From: Candidatus Omnitrophota bacterium
GTDB lineage: Bacteria > Omnitrophota > Gorgyraeia > Zapsychrales > Zapsychraceae
Direction: 5' to 3'
NCBI GenBank assembly: GCA_015233495.1
Contig: JADFXQ010000004.1
Coordinates: 22,976-69,226, forward strand
DNA length: 46,251 nt
Part shown: in pieces, positions 6,800-35,864 of the stretch
Layout of the letters: each line of letters begins with the position of its first letter
Numbering within the stretch: position 1 is the stretch's first letter
Notes under the pieces: generated by a model
Databases searched by the model: none
What the model saw: only the letters and a program-made list of their open reading frames with translations
Told to the model about the DNA's origin: nothing
Translations under genes and position numbers: made by a program

Positions 6800-7417
6800 A
6801 TGAATCGCAGCGCGCAGGTTGATCGCAAAAGCAAGGAAACCGAAATCAGCGCCAGCTTGAACATCGACGGCACCGGCCAGTCCAAGATCAAAACCCAGAT
6901 CGGTATTCTGGACCATATGTTGGAGTTATTTGCGTTTCATGGATTTTTTGATTTGGCTGTTCAGGTCCAAAAAGCCGACCTGAATATTGACCTGCATCAT
7001 ACCAATGAAGATATCGGCATTGTGCTGGGCAAGGTGTTTAAAAAGGCGCTGGGTGATGACAAAGCCGGGATCCGAAGGTTTGGATCAGGGTTTGCTCCCA
7101 TGGAAGCTATGTTGGCCCAGGTGGTGATCGATGTGAGCGGCCGGGGATATTTGCATTTGGATTATGAACCGGCGGCGAAAAATTCTTGAGCCAAAATCGA
7201 AGACGGTTATTCCGGCGAATATTTGGAACATTTTTTGGAATCTTTCGCGCATAATTGCGGCGCAACTCTGCATCTGACATTAAAAGGCGGCGGCAGTGAT
7301 TTGCATACAGCGTTGGAAGCGGTTTTTAAGGCTTTGGCCTTAGCTTTGGACCAAGCGACGCAGGTTGACGCGCGCCGGGGCGGTAAGGTGCCGTCCACAA
7401 AAGGGATTATTGATTAA
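6800..7417 (+). pseudogene. hisB: Imidazoleglycerol-phosphate dehydratase, interrupted by in-frame TGA
   Basis: HisB dehydrates imidazole-glycerol phosphate using two Mn2+. From the ATG at 6800 (good GGTGGAGG site) the frame reads GILDHMLELFAFHGFFDL and the metal motif LHHTNED (H66, H67, E70). It then meets TGA at 7187-7189 (codon 130), and continues in the same frame with EHFLESFAHNCGATLHL and the C-terminal PSTKGIID to the stop at 7417. Read through, it is about 205 residues, normal for the monofunctional enzyme. The second metal motif is usually HHxxE, but here it reads H169-T170-A-L-E173, so one expected ligand is a Thr. The neighbours hisD and hisH are intact. It may be a nonsense allele, sequencing error or suppressed stop. 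Confidence 0.85.
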
Positions 7418-14499: not shown

Positions 14500-16377
14500 A
14501 TGTTCCAATCCCTCGAACTTATTGTCGGCGAGCGGTTTGATCTGGATGTTTTGCATCAGAATCTTACGGCTTTCGGTTATGAGCGCGTCAATCGACTGAC
14601 CCAGGTGGGAGAATTTTGCCAAATCGGCGAAATTCTGCAAATTTTCCCGGAAGAGTTTGACAGCCCTTTGCGGATTGATTTTGACGAAGACCGCGTCAAT
14701 AAAATTGCCAGTATGGATCTGCTTTCGGGCCGCTCGATCTGGCAGCATAAAATCATTATTGTCTTGCCCCGCAAGAAATCCCGTCACGCTGAATCTTTTA
14801 ACGCGGACATCCCGCTCACCCATTTTGTCGACGTAAAAAAGGGCGATTATGTCGTCCACAATTATCACGGCATTGGCCGCTTTTTAGGCCTTGAGGAAAT
14901 CGAAACCGCGAAAGGCCGGCGCGAACACCTAATCATTGAATATCAGGGCGGGGATAAACTTTTTGTCCCGAAGCACGATATTCGGCTCGTGCAAAAATAC
15001 GTGAGTTTTAACAAACGGCCGCCCCGGATCTATCAATTGGGAAGCAAAGAGTGGAAGCGGGTGCGGACGCTGATTCAGAAGCGGTTACAGCGCATGGCCG
15101 CGGAGTTATTGCATACCCAAGCTCTGCGCGCCAGTCAGCCGGGTTACGCTTTTTCACCCGACACGGATTGGCAAAAAGATTTTGAAAAAGGTTTTCCTTT
15201 TCAGGAAACTCCCGATCAAATCAAATCTATGGCGGAAGTAAAAAGGGATATGGAATCAGCGCATCCCATGGATCGTTTGCTTTGCGGCGATGTGGGTTAT
15301 GGGAAAACCGAGGTAGCTTTACGCGCGGTGTTTAAAGCGGTCATGGATAATAAACAGGCCGCCGTATTAGTGCCGACTACGGTTTTGGCGGAACAGCATT
15401 ATGTGAATTTTGCCCAGCGCCTGAAAAATTTTCCTTTGCGCGTCGGCATGTTGAGCCGGTTTCGCACCAAACATGAACAACAATTGACCATCAATGGTTT
15501 GGCGGACGGATCGGTAGACGTGGTGATCGGCACGCATCGGCTTTTGTCAAAAGACGTGGCGTTTAAAGATTTGGGTTTAATCGTCATAGATGAGGAACAA
15601 AGGTTCGGGGTCGCGGCGAAAGAAAAATTAAAACGCCTGCGTTTATTGGCGGATGTGTTGACTTTAACCGCGACCCCGATTCCCCGCACCTTGCACATGG
15701 CCTTGGTGGGAGCCCGGGATATGTCAGTGATTCAGACAGCTCCGGCTAACCGGATTGCGGTTCAAACCCAGGTGATTGAGTTTGATGAAACGATTATCCG
15801 ACGGGCGATCCAGCGGGAAATCGCCAGAAAAGGCCAGGTGTTTTTCTTGCATAACCGTGTTGCGGATATCCAGCGAATTGCTAAAATAATAAAAGATTTG
15901 GTTCCGGAAAGCCGGATTGCGGTAGGGCATGGTCAGATGTCGCCTCGTCAGCTGGAAGAAGTTATGCTGCGGTTTTTTCATGGGGAGGTTGACGTCTTGG
16001 TGTGCACAACCATTGTGGAGTCAGGGATTGATATTCCCAACGCCAATACTTTGATTGTCAACCGGGCGGACCGTTTTGGTTTGGCGGATTTGCATCAATT
16101 ACGCGGCCGGGTTGGCAGGGCGAACACCGAGGCTTACGCCTATTTTGTGATTCCCCGACGCCGGGCTCTAAGCGAAGAGGCCGACGCCCGGATCGAGGCG
16201 ATTGAAAAGTACAGCGGGCTGGGCGCGGGTTTTCAAATCGCTTTTGAAGACATGAATATTCGCGGCGCGGGAAATATTTTGGGTCAGGAACAATCCGGGT
16301 ATATCGCCGCCGTCGGATTTGATTTGTATTGCCGTTTGTTAAAAGAATCAGTCGAGCATTTGAAAAATCAAGGATAA
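14500..16377 (+). CDS. mfd: Short Mfd-type transcription-repair coupling factor (lacks flanking modules)
   Basis: Mfd displaces stalled RNA polymerase and recruits UvrA. Typical proteins have about 1100 residues; this one has 625. Residues 1-80 match the second part of the UvrB-like module (LTAFGYERVNRLTQVGEFCQ, IFPEEFDSPLRID). A CarD-like RNA polymerase interaction domain follows (about 108-170, GDYVVHNYHGIGRFLGLE). Then comes a RecG-type SF2 translocase: Walker A GDVGYGKTE (263-271), DEEQ (364-367), TATPIPRTL, and motif VI QLRGRVGRANTEAYAY. It stops right after GQEQSGYIAAVGFDLYCRLLKESVEHL, where the UvrA-masking C-terminal domain would begin. The upstream gene secDF ends 36 bases before, so no N-terminal remnant is present. 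Confidence 0.88.
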   Translation: MFQSLELIVGERFDLDVLHQNLTAFGYERVNRLTQVGEFCQIGEILQIFPEEFDSPLRIDFDEDRVNKIASMDLLSGRSIWQHKIIIVLPRKKSRHAESFNADIPLTHFVDVKKGDYVVHNYHGIGRFLGLEEIETAKGRREHLIIEYQGGDKLFVPKHDIRLVQKYVSFNKRPPRIYQLGSKEWKRVRTLIQKRLQRMAAELLHTQALRASQPGYAFSPDTDWQKDFEKGFPFQETPDQIKSMAEVKRDMESAHPMDRLLCGDVGYGKTEVALRAVFKAVMDNKQAAVLVPTTVLAEQHYVNFAQRLKNFPLRVGMLSRFRTKHEQQLTINGLADGSVDVVIGTHRLLSKDVAFKDLGLIVIDEEQRFGVAAKEKLKRLRLLADVLTLTATPIPRTLHMALVGARDMSVIQTAPANRIAVQTQVIEFDETIIRRAIQREIARKGQVFFLHNRVADIQRIAKIIKDLVPESRIAVGHGQMSPRQLEEVMLRFFHGEVDVLVCTTIVESGIDIPNANTLIVNRADRFGLADLHQLRGRVGRANTEAYAYFVIPRRRALSEEADARIEAIEKYSGLGAGFQIAFEDMNIRGAGNILGQEQSGYIAAVGFDLYCRLLKESVEHLKNQG

Positions 16378-25695: not shown

Positions 25696-26073
25696 TTACC
25701 GCCATTCTTTAAACCAGATTTTGCGCGGGTCGCGGACGATTTCAAAAGCATATTCGAGAATAGTGTTTTGCTGATGCTCGGGCATATTATAAAAATGGAT
25801 GCCGGCTTCGTCAGTTTCTTCTTCGGCATGAGGCTTGATCCAAACAATCTGCCCCCGGGCTTCGACGCAGATTCCGTCATGCATATAAATTTTGAGATCA
25901 ACTTGTTGTCCGGGATTTAAACCTTTGGGAGTTTCTAAACGAGCTCCGGCGCAGCTGATATCTTTGGTGTAGGCTTCAAAATGTTGGGGGCTGTTGGCTA
26001 AATGTAACGCCACGCGGTTGCGGGTTTCCCAACGGGGCAAATATCTTTGGTCGATTTGGTTTTGATCGTCCAT
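25696..26073 (-). CDS. PilZ-domain protein (c-di-GMP receptor candidate)
   Basis: A 125-residue protein made almost entirely of one PilZ domain. RYLPRWETRNRVAL supplies the arginines of the RxxxR switch. YTKDISCAGARLETPKGLNPGQQVDLKI matches the D/NxSxxG beta-barrel motif (here DISCAG), and GQIVWIKPHAEEETDEAGIHFYN completes the barrel. Single-domain PilZ proteins transmit c-di-GMP levels to motility, pili or exopolysaccharide. An EAL-domain regulator lies 12 kb downstream and pilin-like genes 2-5 kb away, a plausible functional link. It is on the minus strand, convergent with rsmA (13 bases apart) and divergent from the Nudix gene. Confidence 0.88.
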   Translation of the reverse strand: MDDQNQIDQRYLPRWETRNRVALHLANSPQHFEAYTKDISCAGARLETPKGLNPGQQVDLKIYMHDGICVEARGQIVWIKPHAEEETDEAGIHFYNMPEHQQNTILEYAFEIVRDPRKIWFKEWR

Positions 26074-28279: not shown

Positions 28280-30738
28280 TTAATTATCGACGCATCCTTG
28301 AACAAAACAGGTCTGATTTTGACCGCAGTCACACTGCTGTCCGTATGAACATCCTCCAGTAGGAGGAAAAGCGCAATGACCGCCAGTGCTTGTGTTCGTG
28401 TTTGTTCCAGTACCTGAGCCTGCGCTGGTATTTGTACCAGTCCCGTTTCCTGGCGCGCAAAGATGGACAGAAGTTTCACAATGATATCCGCCCGGACAAA
28501 GATCCCCGGCAGCGCATTTAAATAGACAGGTGTTTTCATAACAATATTGCGCTGTTTCAGGACACGAGGGGCAAGTGTGAAAAGGATCGCTGCGGCAATC
28601 ATAGCCATTGAGACAAGTGGGGGTTATGCAATTACCGGTCTCCGGAACACAAATTTCGCCGTAAGAACAATTTTTATGTAAGGTTTGGCATTGGCCTTGG
28701 ATACAGACAATAGTTGCGCATTTATCGCCGCCAGTATGGTCCAAACAACCGCCATAACAATAAGGTGGATTGCCGCTGCATTCGGTGCAAGAGTCCGAAA
28801 TACAATGTCCAACTCCGTTATCGCAATGAAATCCTGCCGGACAAGAATCTAAAACACATGTTCCATTTTGACATTGGGGAGTAAAACAGTTGTCTACTGC
28901 TAGACAGCCAGAATAACAGGGCGGGAGCTGATCCAAACATTGGGTACAGGAGTCTGGGATACAATAACCGGTAGCTGGATTACAATGGGTTGTCGAAGGA
29001 CAGGATACTAGCTGATGAAAACATGAGCCTGTAATACATTGGGTAATGATACATTTGCTAGGATCGTCTATACAGCCAAGAGTACAACCGGAATCAACAG
29101 AGGGATTGCATTCTGTACAAGCGATGTACGTGCTAGTATCTGTACTTGTTGCTGTTTCTGTATTTGTTGCTGTTGTTGTGTTTGTTATTGTTACTGTAAC
29201 TGTTGTTGAGTTAGTAACTGTTGTTGTGTTTGTTGCTGTTATAGTGTTTATTTGAGTTTGCGTACCTGTTTGAGTTTCTGTTCCAGTATTTGGTCCTCCG
29301 CCTGTGGTACCGGTGCTGGTTCCGGTGCCTGTACCGGTGCTAATGTTGGTACTAACAGTACTCGTGCTGATGTTCGTCCCAGTACTTGTGCTGCCCGAAA
29401 CGGTCGTGGTGCCAGTGTTAGTTCCGGTGTTAGTGGCAGTAGGAGGAATTCCGCCTGTTTGAGTCGAAGTGCTTGTTCCGGAGATAGTGGCTGTAGAAGT
29501 CCCGGCGCCTGTATTGGTGCCATTGCCGGTACTTGTGCTTGTATTTGTCCCGGTAGCAGTGCTGGTTGAAGTGCTGGTAGAGGTATTAGTGGTACAAATG
29601 GATGATGATTGACAAAAATTATTGCAACAATAAAAAGCGGAAAATGGACATTGACCAAAACACCAGCTTCCGTTAGAACACGTGCATTCGGTGCCTGTTG
29701 AAGTGGATGTGCTGGTTGATGTGCTGGTGGCTGTGCCAGTTGAGGAAACGGTAGCTGTCCCGGTGTTACTGCCGGTTCCCGTATTGGTGCCTGTAGCAGT
29801 TCCGGTAACCGTGGTTGTATTTGTACCGGTGGCGGTACCAGTTGAAGTCCCAGTTGATGTGCTGGTAGAAGTGCTGGTGTCTGTTCCAGTGTTTGTCCCA
29901 CACTCATCGACAGAAGCGTGGCAAATATTAATACAACAATGTTTAAGCCCGGCAGGACAGCTACTACATTCTTGATCTCTACTACATCCTATGGTGCTTT
30001 CCAAACAAGAAGTGCCGCCAGTAGCAGTTCCTGTTCCTGTGTTAATGGCTGTATTCGTCTCGGTGCCCGTATTGGGTCCAGTACCGGTATTTGTGTTTGT
30101 ATTTGTATTGGTGGTGGTAATGGTCGATGTGCTGGTGAAGGTATTGGTGCTTGTAGCGGTTCCGGTTATGTGTTTGTGTTTGTCCCAGTGGTGGAGTTGG
30201 TCGATGTGCTGGTTCCAGTATTTGTCATTGTATTTGTGTTGGTAACGGTTCCCGAACTTGTTACGGTGTTGGAAGCGGTGTCGGTTCCGGATCCGGTGCT
30301 TGTTTGCGTATTCGTGACAGTTCCGGTAGGGGGTGGAACATTGCCGCAGGTGTTGGTGCAATTATTCGTGGCGGGATAAGCCGCGCTTAAAGGATTGTTG
30401 GCGGTTACCGTAATACATTCCCCAGCATTGATGGTCGCGGTGATTCGAAAAATACCATTAGCCAGGTCGGAACAATAGGTGGTTTTTTTAGTGTTATCAA
30501 CTACATTGACATTGTTGCCCAGCGAGGCATTGATCGCCGCGAGGTTTGGTTTTCCGTCGGGATAACTGCCGCGGATCCGCGCCGCGCCGTGTAAAACGCG
30601 CAAGTTGAGATAAGCTATATCGCGGCGTTTATGATCAATAGCTTTATGAAAGTCGGGTACAGCAAAGCCGATCATCAGTCCGAGAATGGCGATGACAATC
30701 AGGATTTCCATTAAAGTGAAGCCAAAAGCGCGACGCAT
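28280..30738 (-). pseudogene. Giant Thr-rich, Cys-rich type IV pilin-like protein with a frame break at 30168
   Basis: The gene starts at 30738 with MRRAFGFTLMEILIVIAIL, a type III (prepilin) signal with Gly before Phe and Glu at +5, then a pilin helix and a small globular part with Cys. At 30166-30168 a TAA ends this frame inside a Thr-rich tract. The -1 frame continues from 30169 for 629 residues in the same style. The joined product would be about 819 residues: pilin head, Thr-Gly/Ser/Asn linkers, two small Cys modules (about 29888-30010 and 29599-29689), a linker of about 150 residues, three tandem 10-Cys modules, another Cys-rich part, a short linker and a last Cys module. The break could be a sequencing error in low-complexity DNA, a real mutation or phase variation. 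An alternative ATG lies at 30750. Confidence 0.7.
28616..29119 (-). repeat. Three tandem 10-cysteine modules in the large pilin-like protein
   Basis: Three consecutive modules of 57, 53 and 58 residues start with Cys at about 29119, 28948 and 28789 (minus strand). Each has ten Cys in the same order: CTxC, C-x3-C, two single Cys, then G-x-C, a CP/CS pair element, a Cys three residues before N/E-x-G, and a closing Cys before I. The sequences differ at most other positions, so these are old duplications kept by selection for cysteines. Ten Cys suggests five disulphides per module. Confidence 0.85.
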
Positions 30739-30767
30739 AACAATTCCCATTTCTCAATAACATTTAT

Positions 30768-31310
30768 CTAAGGAAAGCAACTGCTGGCCCCGGTGCTTTT
30801 GATCCAGGCATAATCCCCGCAATTGTTTTGATAACAGTATTGTCCGGCGCTGCAAGCGCAGTTAATGGCGCCGCCGACAAAGCAGACGCCGTTTTGACAA
30901 AAAGCGCAGGCCCCGGGACAAACCTGCCCGCATCCCGAACCGCTGGGCGTGCCGCCCGATTGCACGATTTTATAATTTTCCGTGCCGCCAATTCGCGTCG
31001 CGGTCAAGGTATAGCCGCCCGCGCCGTCGGGTGTGTAGTCGTAAGCAAAAAGATCGTCTAAAATATTGCCGCTCAAAGTTGAGTTCAATCCCGTGAGAGT
31101 CAGCGGATTAGCGGGAAAATTATTATTGGTTGTGTTGGCCCGATAAGTCGCTAATAAACTTTGTAATGCGGTCAGATTATTTTGCGCGCGTTGGGCTTGC
31201 TGTTTGGAAATCGCTTTCAAGTAATTGGGAATGCCAAATCCTAAAATCGCGGATAAAATCACGATAACCACAATGATTTCGGTCAGGGTAAAACCCAAGG
31301 ATCTTTTCAT
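30768..31310 (-). CDS. Type IV pilin-like protein with Cys-rich tail
   Basis: A 180-residue pseudopilin. MKRSLGFTLTEIIVVIVILSAILGFGIPNYL is a classic prepilin start, with Gly before Phe, Glu at +5 and a hydrophobic helix. After about residue 35 comes a normal helix (QRAQNNLTALQSLLATYRANT) and a small globular part. The last 55 residues hold ten Cys (CGQVCPGACAFC, CFVGGAINCACSAGQYCYQNNC), a pattern shared with the Cys modules of the gene that follows 29 bases downstream. Such proteins form pili or type II secretion pseudopili after prepilin peptidase cleavage. No assembly ATPase or peptidase gene is in the window. Confidence 0.88.
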   Translation of the reverse strand: MKRSLGFTLTEIIVVIVILSAILGFGIPNYLKAISKQQAQRAQNNLTALQSLLATYRANTTNNNFPANPLTLTGLNSTLSGNILDDLFAYDYTPDGAGGYTLTATRIGGTENYKIVQSGGTPSGSGCGQVCPGACAFCQNGVCFVGGAINCACSAGQYCYQNNCGDYAWIKSTGASSCFP

Positions 31311-32557: not shown

Positions 32558-34177
32558 ATGTCATTGACATTAAAAAAATTGGATAATTTTCAGGGCCGGC
32601 CGGGGCCGTTGTTGTTGATCATTATGGACGGCGTGGGGATTGGCAAACAGGATGCCAGCGACGGCGTATTTATGGCGCGCCCGGCTTGTTTAAATGGGTT
32701 GATGCAGAGCGGACTTTATGCGTGTTTGCAGGCTCACGGCAAAGCCGTTGGAATGCCGTCGGACGCGGATATGGGAAACAGTGAAGTCGGGCATAATGCT
32801 TTAGGCGCGGGCCGGGTGTTTGCCCAAGGCGCCACTTTGGTGCAGCAGGCAATCGACCAGGGGGAGATTTTTAAATCGGATCTCTGGGGTCAATTGATCG
32901 GCCGCGGCAAAAATAACACTTTACATTTCATCGGGCTTTTATCCGACGGAAACGTTCATTCGCATATTGAGCATTTGTTCGCCCTGGTGCGCCAATGCGC
33001 TGCCGCGGGCGTCAAAAAGGTCCGCCTGCATATTTTGCTTGACGGGCGCGATGTTTATGAGAAATCCGCTTTAACCTATATTGAAAAAACCGAGTCCTTA
33101 TTAACGCAGTTGAATCGCGACCACGGCGTCGATTACCGGATCGCCTCAGGAGGCGGCCGTATGGTCGTGACTATGGACCGTTATGGCGCGGATTGGAAAA
33201 TAGTCAAAACCGGATGGGACGCGCATGTTTTGGGAAAAGGCCGGCAGTTTTCCGCGGCGGCTGCAGCGGTCGCGACTTATTATCGAGAAGATCCGACAAT
33301 CACCGATCAATATATGAACGCCTTTGTCATTGTCGAAAACGGCCGGCCGGTCGGCACGATACAGGACGGGGACGCGGTGGTGTTTTTCAATTTCCGCGGC
33401 GACCGGGCAATCGAATTGTCTCAGGCCTTTGATGATCCGGATTTTAAACAATTCGACCGGGAACGTGTTCCCGAGGTTTTGTTCGCCGGGATGATGGAAT
33501 ACGATGGGGATTTGCATGTGCCGCGGCATTTTTTAGTGAATCCTCCGGCGATTGACCGGACCATCAGCGAATATTTATGCGCCCAGGGAATCAAATCCTT
33601 CGCGATTTCCGAAACGCAAAAATACGGGCACGTCACGTATTTTTGGAATGGCAACAAGTCCGGATATGTGGACCCGAAATTGGAATTATACGTCGAGATT
33701 CCTTCGGATAAAATACGGTTTGACCAGAAGCCGGATATGCAGGCAAGAGAAATCACTGCGAAAACCATTGAACTGTTAAAAAGCGGCCAATATAAATTCG
33801 GCCGGCTGAATTTCGCCAACGGCGACATGGTCGGACACACGGGAATAGAACCGGCAATTATCCGCGCGGTTGCCACGGTTGACGCTTGTGTAGCTGAATT
33901 AATATCAGTCGTCAACGCGCTTGGCGGGATTACCGTCGTCACCGCGGATCATGGGAATGCCGATGAAATGTTTACTTTGAAAAAAGGCGAGAAAATCGTC
34001 AGCACCGCGCATTCGCTCAACCCGGTGCCGTTCGCGATAGTTGACAGCCAATATCGCCAGGAATATCGGATGGCGGATTTATCTTTTAAAGGCCTGTCAA
34101 ATGTAGCGGCGACCTTGATGAATCTTTTGGGTTACGATAAACCGGAAGATTATGATCCGTCGTTGATTGTCTTCTAA
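32558..34177 (+). CDS. gpmI: 2,3-bisphosphoglycerate-independent phosphoglycerate mutase
   Basis: iPGM interconverts 3- and 2-phosphoglycerate using two Mn2+ and a phosphoserine intermediate. The 539-residue protein has LLLIIMDGVGIGK (metal Asp), MGNSEVGHNALGAG with the nucleophilic Ser, HFIGLLSDGNVHSHIEHLFAL, LDGRDV and FFNFRGDRAIELSQA. At the C-terminal phosphatase half are GDMVGHTG, TADHGNADEM and STAHSLNPVPF. It has a clear TAGGAGAACAGT site before the ATG. Length is slightly above the common 510. Confidence 0.97.
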   Translation: MSLTLKKLDNFQGRPGPLLLIIMDGVGIGKQDASDGVFMARPACLNGLMQSGLYACLQAHGKAVGMPSDADMGNSEVGHNALGAGRVFAQGATLVQQAIDQGEIFKSDLWGQLIGRGKNNTLHFIGLLSDGNVHSHIEHLFALVRQCAAAGVKKVRLHILLDGRDVYEKSALTYIEKTESLLTQLNRDHGVDYRIASGGGRMVVTMDRYGADWKIVKTGWDAHVLGKGRQFSAAAAAVATYYREDPTITDQYMNAFVIVENGRPVGTIQDGDAVVFFNFRGDRAIELSQAFDDPDFKQFDRERVPEVLFAGMMEYDGDLHVPRHFLVNPPAIDRTISEYLCAQGIKSFAISETQKYGHVTYFWNGNKSGYVDPKLELYVEIPSDKIRFDQKPDMQAREITAKTIELLKSGQYKFGRLNFANGDMVGHTGIEPAIIRAVATVDACVAELISVVNALGGITVVTADHGNADEMFTLKKGEKIVSTAHSLNPVPFAIVDSQYRQEYRMADLSFKGLSNVAATLMNLLGYDKPEDYDPSLIVF

Positions 34178-34190
34178 GAAGGATGGCCTA

Positions 34191-35864
34191 ATGGGGAAGC
34201 GGTTTTTTTACAGTCACTTAACATCCATTTTTGCCTTACTGGTTTTAGCCTATTTTTTCCTCATGCTTGGCAACGGATCCGTCAGTCTCACCCATCCGGA
34301 CGAAGTCTTTTACATCGACAGCGCAAAAGAAATGCTAGCTCATAATAGCTGGTTCACTCCGATGATTTTTGATCATATCCAATTTGAAAAGCCTTTTTTG
34401 GCTTTCGCGATGTTTATGACCGCGATAAAAGCCTTTGGCCTTAATCCGGCCGCAGCGCGGTTTTTTCCCGCCTTGTTCGCAATCATCGGTGTGATGTCGG
34501 TTTACGGCATTGCCATAATTTTATTTCGCAATCGCCGGGTGGCTTTTTTGTCCGGTTTAGTTTTGGCTACTAGTTTCATTTACATGGCTTTGGCGCGCGC
34601 TGTGCTTACCGACATGATTTTCACGACCTGGGTCAGTTTGTCGACTGGCGCTTTTTGTCTGGCTTATTATTCCCGGGAAAAGCGGGCGGGAGCAACGCTG
34701 GCCGCTTTTGTGTTCATGGCGGCAGCCGTGTTGACCAAAGGTTTATTGGGAATTTGTTTCCCTCTGACCACCTTGATTTTATTTTTAATTTATCAGCGGG
34801 ATTTAAAATTTTTATGGCAGGGTTCCATGGTCTGGGGTTTTCTATTAATGTTAGCATTGGCCGTTCCTTGGCACGTCATGATGTATCAGCGCTATGGCGA
34901 CTTTTTTTTGTATGAATATTTTGGCAATGTGCATATTCGGCGTTTATATGCGGCGGAACATCCTAAACTCAATACGCCTTTTTTTTATCCGGGTTTGATG
35001 TTCGCCGGGATTATGCCCTGGAGTTTGTTTTGGTTTCCGGCGGCGCAAAATGTGTGGCAGCGGTTTCAGGAAAAATCCGGCGACCGGGATAAAATCTTTT
35101 TTTTGCTGGCCTGGATGTTGGCGATTTTAGCGTTTATTCAACCCGCGGCTTCAAAATTGGCGAGTTATGTGTTTCCTTTATTTCCAGCCGTCGCGATTTT
35201 TATTGCTTATTATTTAGACCGCGCCTTATCATTATCCGTGTCTACGGGGAACAACCGCGGTTTAGCGGGGTGCGGTTACGCGATGAGCCTGATTTTATGG
35301 GGAATCGCCGGCGGGGGGATATTGGCGGGTTTGAAATACCCCGCAGTCATCAAAGAGATGACTCCGGTATATATTACGGCTGGCGCAGCTGTCGTTGTAG
35401 CTTTATTGATTTTCACAGCGGCGCGGCAAGGCAATTTTATCCGCATGATTTTTTTCTTCCCGGCTTTGAGCGGGGTTTTGTTGTTAGCGCTATTTCTGGG
35501 ACGGCCTTATGCGGAGCCGTGGGTGTCTTGTCAGGACGTCAGCCGAGCCCTGCTAAAGGAGGATACCTCCGGCAATCCGGTCATTGCCAGCAAGTTTTAT
35601 GTCCGGGGTGTCTGGTATTACACTGGTTTGCCGACGGCGGTTATGGATATCAATGGGGAAGGATTTTGGAGCCCGCATCCCATTCCGTTTTTAAATGACG
35701 ATAAAAAGGTTTTGGAATTTTTGCTCCAACAAAAAGTAACGTTCGCAGTAGTGAAAGAAAGCAATAGCCAAGACTTAAAACGGATTCTCGCGAATCAGCC
35801 TTTTCGTTCGCGGGAGCTCTATGGCAAAGCGGGGAAATATATTTTGAGGATTGAAAAACAGTAG
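34191..35864 (+). CDS. ArnT/PMT-like membrane glycosyltransferase
   Basis: A 557-residue GT-C enzyme with about twelve membrane helices. The first periplasmic loop has SLTHPDEVFYIDSAKEM and HIQFEKPFLAF, the Asp-Glu and E/KPP-like motifs of the ArnT family, which moves aminoarabinose or other sugars from undecaprenyl phosphate to lipid A or proteins. Later come AAARFFPALFAIIGV, RAVLTDMIFTTWV and AGIMPWSLFW. A soluble tail of about 100 residues follows the last helix. The start at 34191 (AGAAGGATGGCCTA upstream) is preferred over an in-frame codon inside gpmI. Acceptor and sugar are not determinable. Confidence 0.8.
   Translation: MGKRFFYSHLTSIFALLVLAYFFLMLGNGSVSLTHPDEVFYIDSAKEMLAHNSWFTPMIFDHIQFEKPFLAFAMFMTAIKAFGLNPAAARFFPALFAIIGVMSVYGIAIILFRNRRVAFLSGLVLATSFIYMALARAVLTDMIFTTWVSLSTGAFCLAYYSREKRAGATLAAFVFMAAAVLTKGLLGICFPLTTLILFLIYQRDLKFLWQGSMVWGFLLMLALAVPWHVMMYQRYGDFFLYEYFGNVHIRRLYAAEHPKLNTPFFYPGLMFAGIMPWSLFWFPAAQNVWQRFQEKSGDRDKIFFLLAWMLAILAFIQPAASKLASYVFPLFPAVAIFIAYYLDRALSLSVSTGNNRGLAGCGYAMSLILWGIAGGGILAGLKYPAVIKEMTPVYITAGAAVVVALLIFTAARQGNFIRMIFFFPALSGVLLLALFLGRPYAEPWVSCQDVSRALLKEDTSGNPVIASKFYVRGVWYYTGLPTAVMDINGEGFWSPHPIPFLNDDKKVLEFLLQQKVTFAVVKESNSQDLKRILANQPFRSRELYGKAGKYILRIEKQ

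Follow-up and report, generated by a model that had tools for sequence, protein, structure and literature searches.

We describe a gene from a Candidatus Omnitrophota bacterium that probably encodes a modular type IV pilin, in which a conserved head is followed by an extension of about 690 residues, built from Thr-rich linkers and Cys-rich knots and added in this lineage. The gene lies on the minus strand of the window, which is the whole stretch of 46,251 nucleotides that was analysed. The source genome has a size of 2.1 Mb, is 91% complete and stands alone in its genus among the genomes compared. Judged by its architecture, the protein is probably a modular pilin of a new type that acts as a pilus-displayed adhesin.

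As assembled, the gene is divided between two reading frames. The prepilin open reading frame runs from 30738 to 30169 on the minus strand, has 190 codons and ends at a TAA at 30168–30166. It covers the pilin head and the first 59 residues of a Thr-rich linker. The tail lies in the -1 frame. It starts with ATA-ACC-GGA at 30169, a base that is common to both frames, and is open over 629 codons to 28283, followed by a stop codon at 28282–28280. The joined product therefore has 190 + 629 = 819 residues. A preliminary description of this DNA had given the same coordinates and frames, a -1 break at 30166–30169 and a length of about 819 residues, all of which match the sequence.

The start codon of the head is the ATG at 30738, with GGGAA immediately 5′ of it, and there is an in-frame alternative ATG at 30750. 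The product begins MRRAFGFTLMEILIVIAILG and carries a class III signal, where the leader MRRAFG (30721–30738) precedes a mature start at FTLMEI with Glu at +5. The preliminary description had called a prepilin from the Gly before FTLMEI and this Glu, and the call is borne out by matches that exceed both curated cut-offs: 25.0 bits for PF07963 (Pfam N_methyl, cut-off 21.2) and 21.1 bits for TIGR02532 (NCBIfam, cut-off 16.3). The pilin head, which also aligns with the pilins of relatives, takes up joined residues 1–131 and contains four Cys. AlphaFold2 gave a poor model of it, with a helix at 13–61, two strands and a mean pLDDT of 46.

Past the head, joined residues 132–244, 281–351, 383–540 and 765–788 form Thr-rich linkers. 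Linker 1 (30008–30345, 43% Thr), which has the break inside it, is followed on the minus strand by Cys-rich part 1 (29900–30007, 36 residues with 8 Cys), linker 2 (29687–29899, 71 residues, 48% Thr), Cys-rich part 2 (29594–29686, 31 residues with 8 Cys) and linker 3 (29120–29593, 158 residues, 44% Thr). There follows a run of four ten-Cys modules at 28448–29119, namely A (28949–29119, 57 residues), B (28790–28948, 53 residues), C (28616–28789, 58 residues) and D (28448–28615, 56 residues), the last of which has diverged from A–C. A short Thr/Gly-rich linker 4 (28376–28447) and a C-terminal Cys-rich part (28283–28375, 31 residues with 6 Cys) complete the protein. This layout of Thr linkers and Cys-rich parts was already recognized in the preliminary description, but the six Cys-rich parts reported there become seven on our count, in addition to the four Cys of the head. 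The tail has no match in PDB, Pfam or NCBIfam, and the AlphaFold2 model of the Cys region is poor (mean pLDDT 49).

The tail region evolved as a protein, because its tandem Cys repeats differ synonymously and its Thr alternation is strict. Every other residue of the three long linkers is Thr, in a T-x-T-x pattern. The T-x-T counts in linkers 1–3 are 39, 30 and 52, about twice the 20.5, 15.6 and 30.4 of shuffled sequences, while TT occurs 3, 2 and 9 times against 20.7, 15.9 and 30.7, which is about one tenth to one third of the expected number. This alternation is beyond chance composition. Modules A, B and C are tandem repeats with identities of 42% (A–B), 40% (B–C) and 38% (A–C), and their respective alignment scores of 101, 90 and 85 exceed every plain shuffle (maxima 60–70). 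When the shuffles preserve the Cys positions (means 46–48, maxima 86–97), A–B remains outside their range and B–C and A–C fall within the extreme tail. Synonymous differences are found at 9–14 of the 21–22 identical residues between these repeats. The tail frame contains no stops and the other five frames contain 12–38; the longest open stretch in base-shuffled tail sequence was about 101 codons, and at most 250 in 1000 trials.

The pilin family of the head is found throughout the order, with matches in 74 of the 74 genomes covered by a profile search. The closest named match of the head is from an Omnitrophota MAG (44% over 48 residues), and E-values against the pilins of relatives range from 1e-10 to 1e-16. 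Among the roughly 150 family matches listed, the open frames have 89–225 residues, except for one of 283 (G036) and one of 439 (G046), and the tail extends past the end of nearly all of these homologous heads. The pilins of the relatives that we read end near a Cys motif, NPCC..G.CPSL..C, and it is here that the tail of our protein begins. The short pilins at L012, L019 and L022 are examples: they share the homologous head and similar C-terminal Cys residues, but they stop at about 130 residues and lack a Thr or Cys tail. The longest proteins among the PF07963 matches listed for the 31 family genomes, of 749 and 421 residues, are PilW/pseudopilin-like and not Thr-rich.

Some pilins in these genomes do carry other tails. 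The G046 frame of 439 residues (G046:C14:56000-60000, here L117; 1063–2361, minus strand) encodes a modular pilin of 432 residues, in which the head is followed by a Gly/Ser-rich linker of about 80 residues and a C-terminal domain with a HEATH (HExxH) motif. This domain is perhaps a metallopeptidase displayed on the pilus. At L119 (G073) a member of the same pilin family has a low-complexity tail of about 70 residues after the same C-terminal Cys pair. Tails in L117, L119 and the present gene point to the C-terminus of these pilins as a site of tail addition.

The Thr/Cys tail itself was seen in one genome only. We found no relatives of the Cys tail in 81 genomes of the order, nor in phages, plasmids and viral contigs, and a search of 31 family genomes returned the source genome alone. 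Alternating-Thr-codon tracts were detected by DNA patterns in 8 of 74 order genomes and 11 of 384 phylum genomes; because the patterns require 9–10 Thr codons in strict alternation, tails that are shorter or less regular could escape them. The preliminary description had proposed a search of related genomes for pilins with long Thr-rich tails. None occurs among the loci read from the tract matches, which are a subset of the matched places, and the other Thr tracts that we read there are short linkers in surface proteins. A minus-strand frame of at least 476 residues at L098 (G166:C101) has very long W/Y/G-rich repeats (GGWWYGGWW...) and then a long poly-Thr tract.

At L084 (G043:C192, 89–3310 and 7596–9875) two secreted proteins, one of 1073 and the other of 759 residues, resemble the tail in style. 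Like the tail, they place Cys-rich parts on T-x-T-x strings; they also have very long T-G-T-x tracts, and contain 24–28% Thr and 47–56 Cys. Unlike our protein they have no pilin head, and begin instead with a secretion-type leader; no similarity between their Cys parts and the tail passes an E-value of 1e-5. The genes between and beside them encode a protein that matches PMT and PMT_4TMC, a glycosyltransferase of family 2 and a membrane protein with DUF2079, and the whole is a candidate cluster for O-glycosylated surface proteins. A further protein, at L039 (5001–7442, plus strand) in Gastranaerophilales, is likewise large and Cys-rich, with 804 residues, 36 Cys and a prepilin head. However, it has just 7% Thr and no Thr strings, and we saw no relation to our protein beyond the pilin head.

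As the sequence stands, translation would end at 190 residues, and the product would be a short pilin that carries a Thr-rich stub of 59 residues. The break (30166–30169, minus strand), where the head frame reads TAA and the tail frame ATA, falls within a diverged tandem duplication that Tandem Repeats Finder places at 30084–30232, with a 77-bp unit, 1.9 copies and 76% matches. When the two copies are aligned there is one single-base gap, placed exactly at the break, so that one copy is a base short relative to the other. The Thr phase is kept over the join (23:1 before the break, 23:2 after it), and the simplest reading is therefore one protein split by one base. This agrees with the single, broken gene of the preliminary description. 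Neutral decay would be expected to leave about one stop in the tail per 1.5% divergence. No stop is observed, hence the break, if real, is young. With the tail frame intact, the break is either very recent or a strain variant, or else it arose in assembly. The tail is absent from the relatives searched, and these consequently do not bear on the nature of the break.

A second disruption in the window bears on this question. The hisB gene (6800–7417, plus strand) has an in-frame TGA at 7187–7189, which is a sequence error, a strain variant or a true loss of histidine synthesis. It lies in an otherwise intact his operon, and hisB is intact over the matched stretch in every family relative matched. 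With genes otherwise intact over about 40 kb, two disruptions of one event each speak for sequence error or strain variation no less than for decay. Suppose, all the same, that the break is real and fixed, and that a tailed pilin was recently shortened, leaving the tail as a young pseudogene fragment. The TAA is, after all, present in the assembly, the short form of 190 residues is still a plausible pilin, near the size of relatives' pilins in the same family, and the hisB TGA, seen in no relative, suggests that this population may be subject to decay or strain variation. We nevertheless regard this account as unlikely, since the tail runs for 629 codons with neither a stop nor a second indel, hisB sits in an operon that is otherwise whole, and a one-base miscall or minor variant would explain both disruptions equally well.

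Two other explanations are much less probable. One is that programmed or regulated switching, by frameshifting or by slippage that differs between strains, lets a single gene supply a full-length pilin as well as a short one. Since the local repeats have a six-base unit, slippage would alter the length by whole codons, and the break has no homopolymer. The zero frame reads ACA-AAC-ACA-TAA, which holds no slippery heptamer, and a tRNA-Thr on ACA would be unable to re-pair one base back; we thus rejected classical -1 frameshifting, and this explanation is very improbable even though both forms could work as pilins and the break is situated in a Thr tract rich in repeats, at the junction of the 77-bp duplication. 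We also rejected a translation restart at the tail, which has no ATG, only three TTG codons and no leader. Scans for promoters and terminators performed no better than shuffles. The other explanation is a misassembly, in which a pilin gene was falsely joined at Thr tracts to a separate secreted Thr/Cys-rich gene of the kind seen at L084. Free-standing proteins of this kind do exist in the order, low-complexity tracts are prone to false joins, and there is a tandem repeat near the join. That said, 59 residues of the Thr tract already precede the break, in the frame of the pilin itself, and the phase is unchanged beyond it, the flanking 77-bp copies have diverged (76%) and do not form an identical join, and the upstream pilin has a Cys-rich knot of similar style. 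We regard a false join of this kind as very improbable.

The genomic context of the favoured modular pilin includes a second prepilin directly upstream (30768–31310, minus strand), which scores over the PF07963 cut-off, matches the head with an E-value of 1.5e-13 and belongs to the same pilin family. It lacks a Thr linker and has a single short, Cys-rich knot at its C-terminus. The two genes are likely in the same operon, being on the same strand with a gap of about 17–29 nucleotides. The same contig encodes PilM, a secretin, a PilB-type (T2SSE) ATPase and PilC (T2SSF), and a prepilin peptidase (Peptidase_A24) is found elsewhere in the genome, on contig C19. About 3 kb from the pilin locus is a gene for a GT39-type, PMT/ArnT-like membrane glycosyltransferase (34167–35864, plus strand), with 57.3 bits for PF02366; its best NCBIfam match is ArnT, at 141.9 bits and under the cut-off of 567. 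The product is a possible candidate for O-glycosylation, and a lipid A transfer of the ArnT type is equally possible. Two further genes of the window are worth noting. One encodes a PilZ-domain protein (25696–26073, minus strand; PF07238, 59.8 bits), which lies on the strand of the pilin tail at a distance of about 2.2 kb. The other encodes an Mfd-like helicase of 625 residues (14500–16377, plus strand) that, from its translation judged by eye, seems to be without the usual domains at its N- and C-termini.

The preliminary description held the protein to be far longer than any ordinary pilin and to have an organisation not known from any described pilin. This needs to be revised, as modular pilins are a known class with more than 1,200 proteins in 264 architectures, one of them of 860 residues (PMC8179133), and L117 is a 432-residue example from the same order. 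PilB and PilC of Streptococcus sanguinis are modular type IV pilins, and PilB has been modelled at or near the pilus tip (PMC8179133). Our protein resembles them in its class III signal, N-terminal pilin module and extra C-terminal part, which in the assembly is interrupted by the TAA. It differs from the described modular pilins in that the extra part consists of Cys-rich knots on long Thr-x repeats, with no Pfam or NCBIfam match and hence no recognisable functional domain; such a domain is the database criterion for the class, and some modular pilins carry modules without a signature (PMC8179133). L117, from the same taxonomic order, likewise has a pilin head, a low-complexity linker and an extra domain, but the linker is Gly/Ser-rich and leads to one HExxH-containing domain with no Cys knots. 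We found a pilin with exactly this pairing of Thr strings and Cys knots nowhere else in the genomes compared, and a limited literature search returned no description of one.

We propose the following route for the full-length protein. The class III signal would direct it to the inner membrane, where the prepilin peptidase would cleave MRRAFG|FTLMEI, followed by methylation. Through its N-terminal helix the protein could then be packed into the type IV pilus, at the tip or close to it, in the position modelled for PilB of S. sanguinis. The Thr strings, extended and probably glycosylated, would project the knots, for which disulphide formation is predicted, away from the filament. There the knots may form an array that binds ligands or serves in adhesion, and the smaller upstream pilin with its single knot is a putative partner. 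A bolder version of this idea is more tentative, and we think it rather doubtful: a lineage-specific, mucin-like pilin whose glycosylated, disulphide-knotted arm of about 690 residues is an attachment device, perhaps of a host-associated bacterium, with short and long forms possibly produced by way of the break.

Type IV pili of Omnitrophota have been proposed to mediate attachment to larger cells (PMC10066038), and a Thr/Cys-tailed pilin would offer a specific adhesin candidate for this role. Should the full protein be produced, it would extend the modular-pilin idea to an arm of 'beads on a (probably glycosylated) string'. It would also mean that the C-terminus of this pilin family accepts very different tails, of Thr and Cys here and of low complexity in L119; elsewhere in the order, the L117 pilin has a peptidase-like domain on a Gly/Ser linker.
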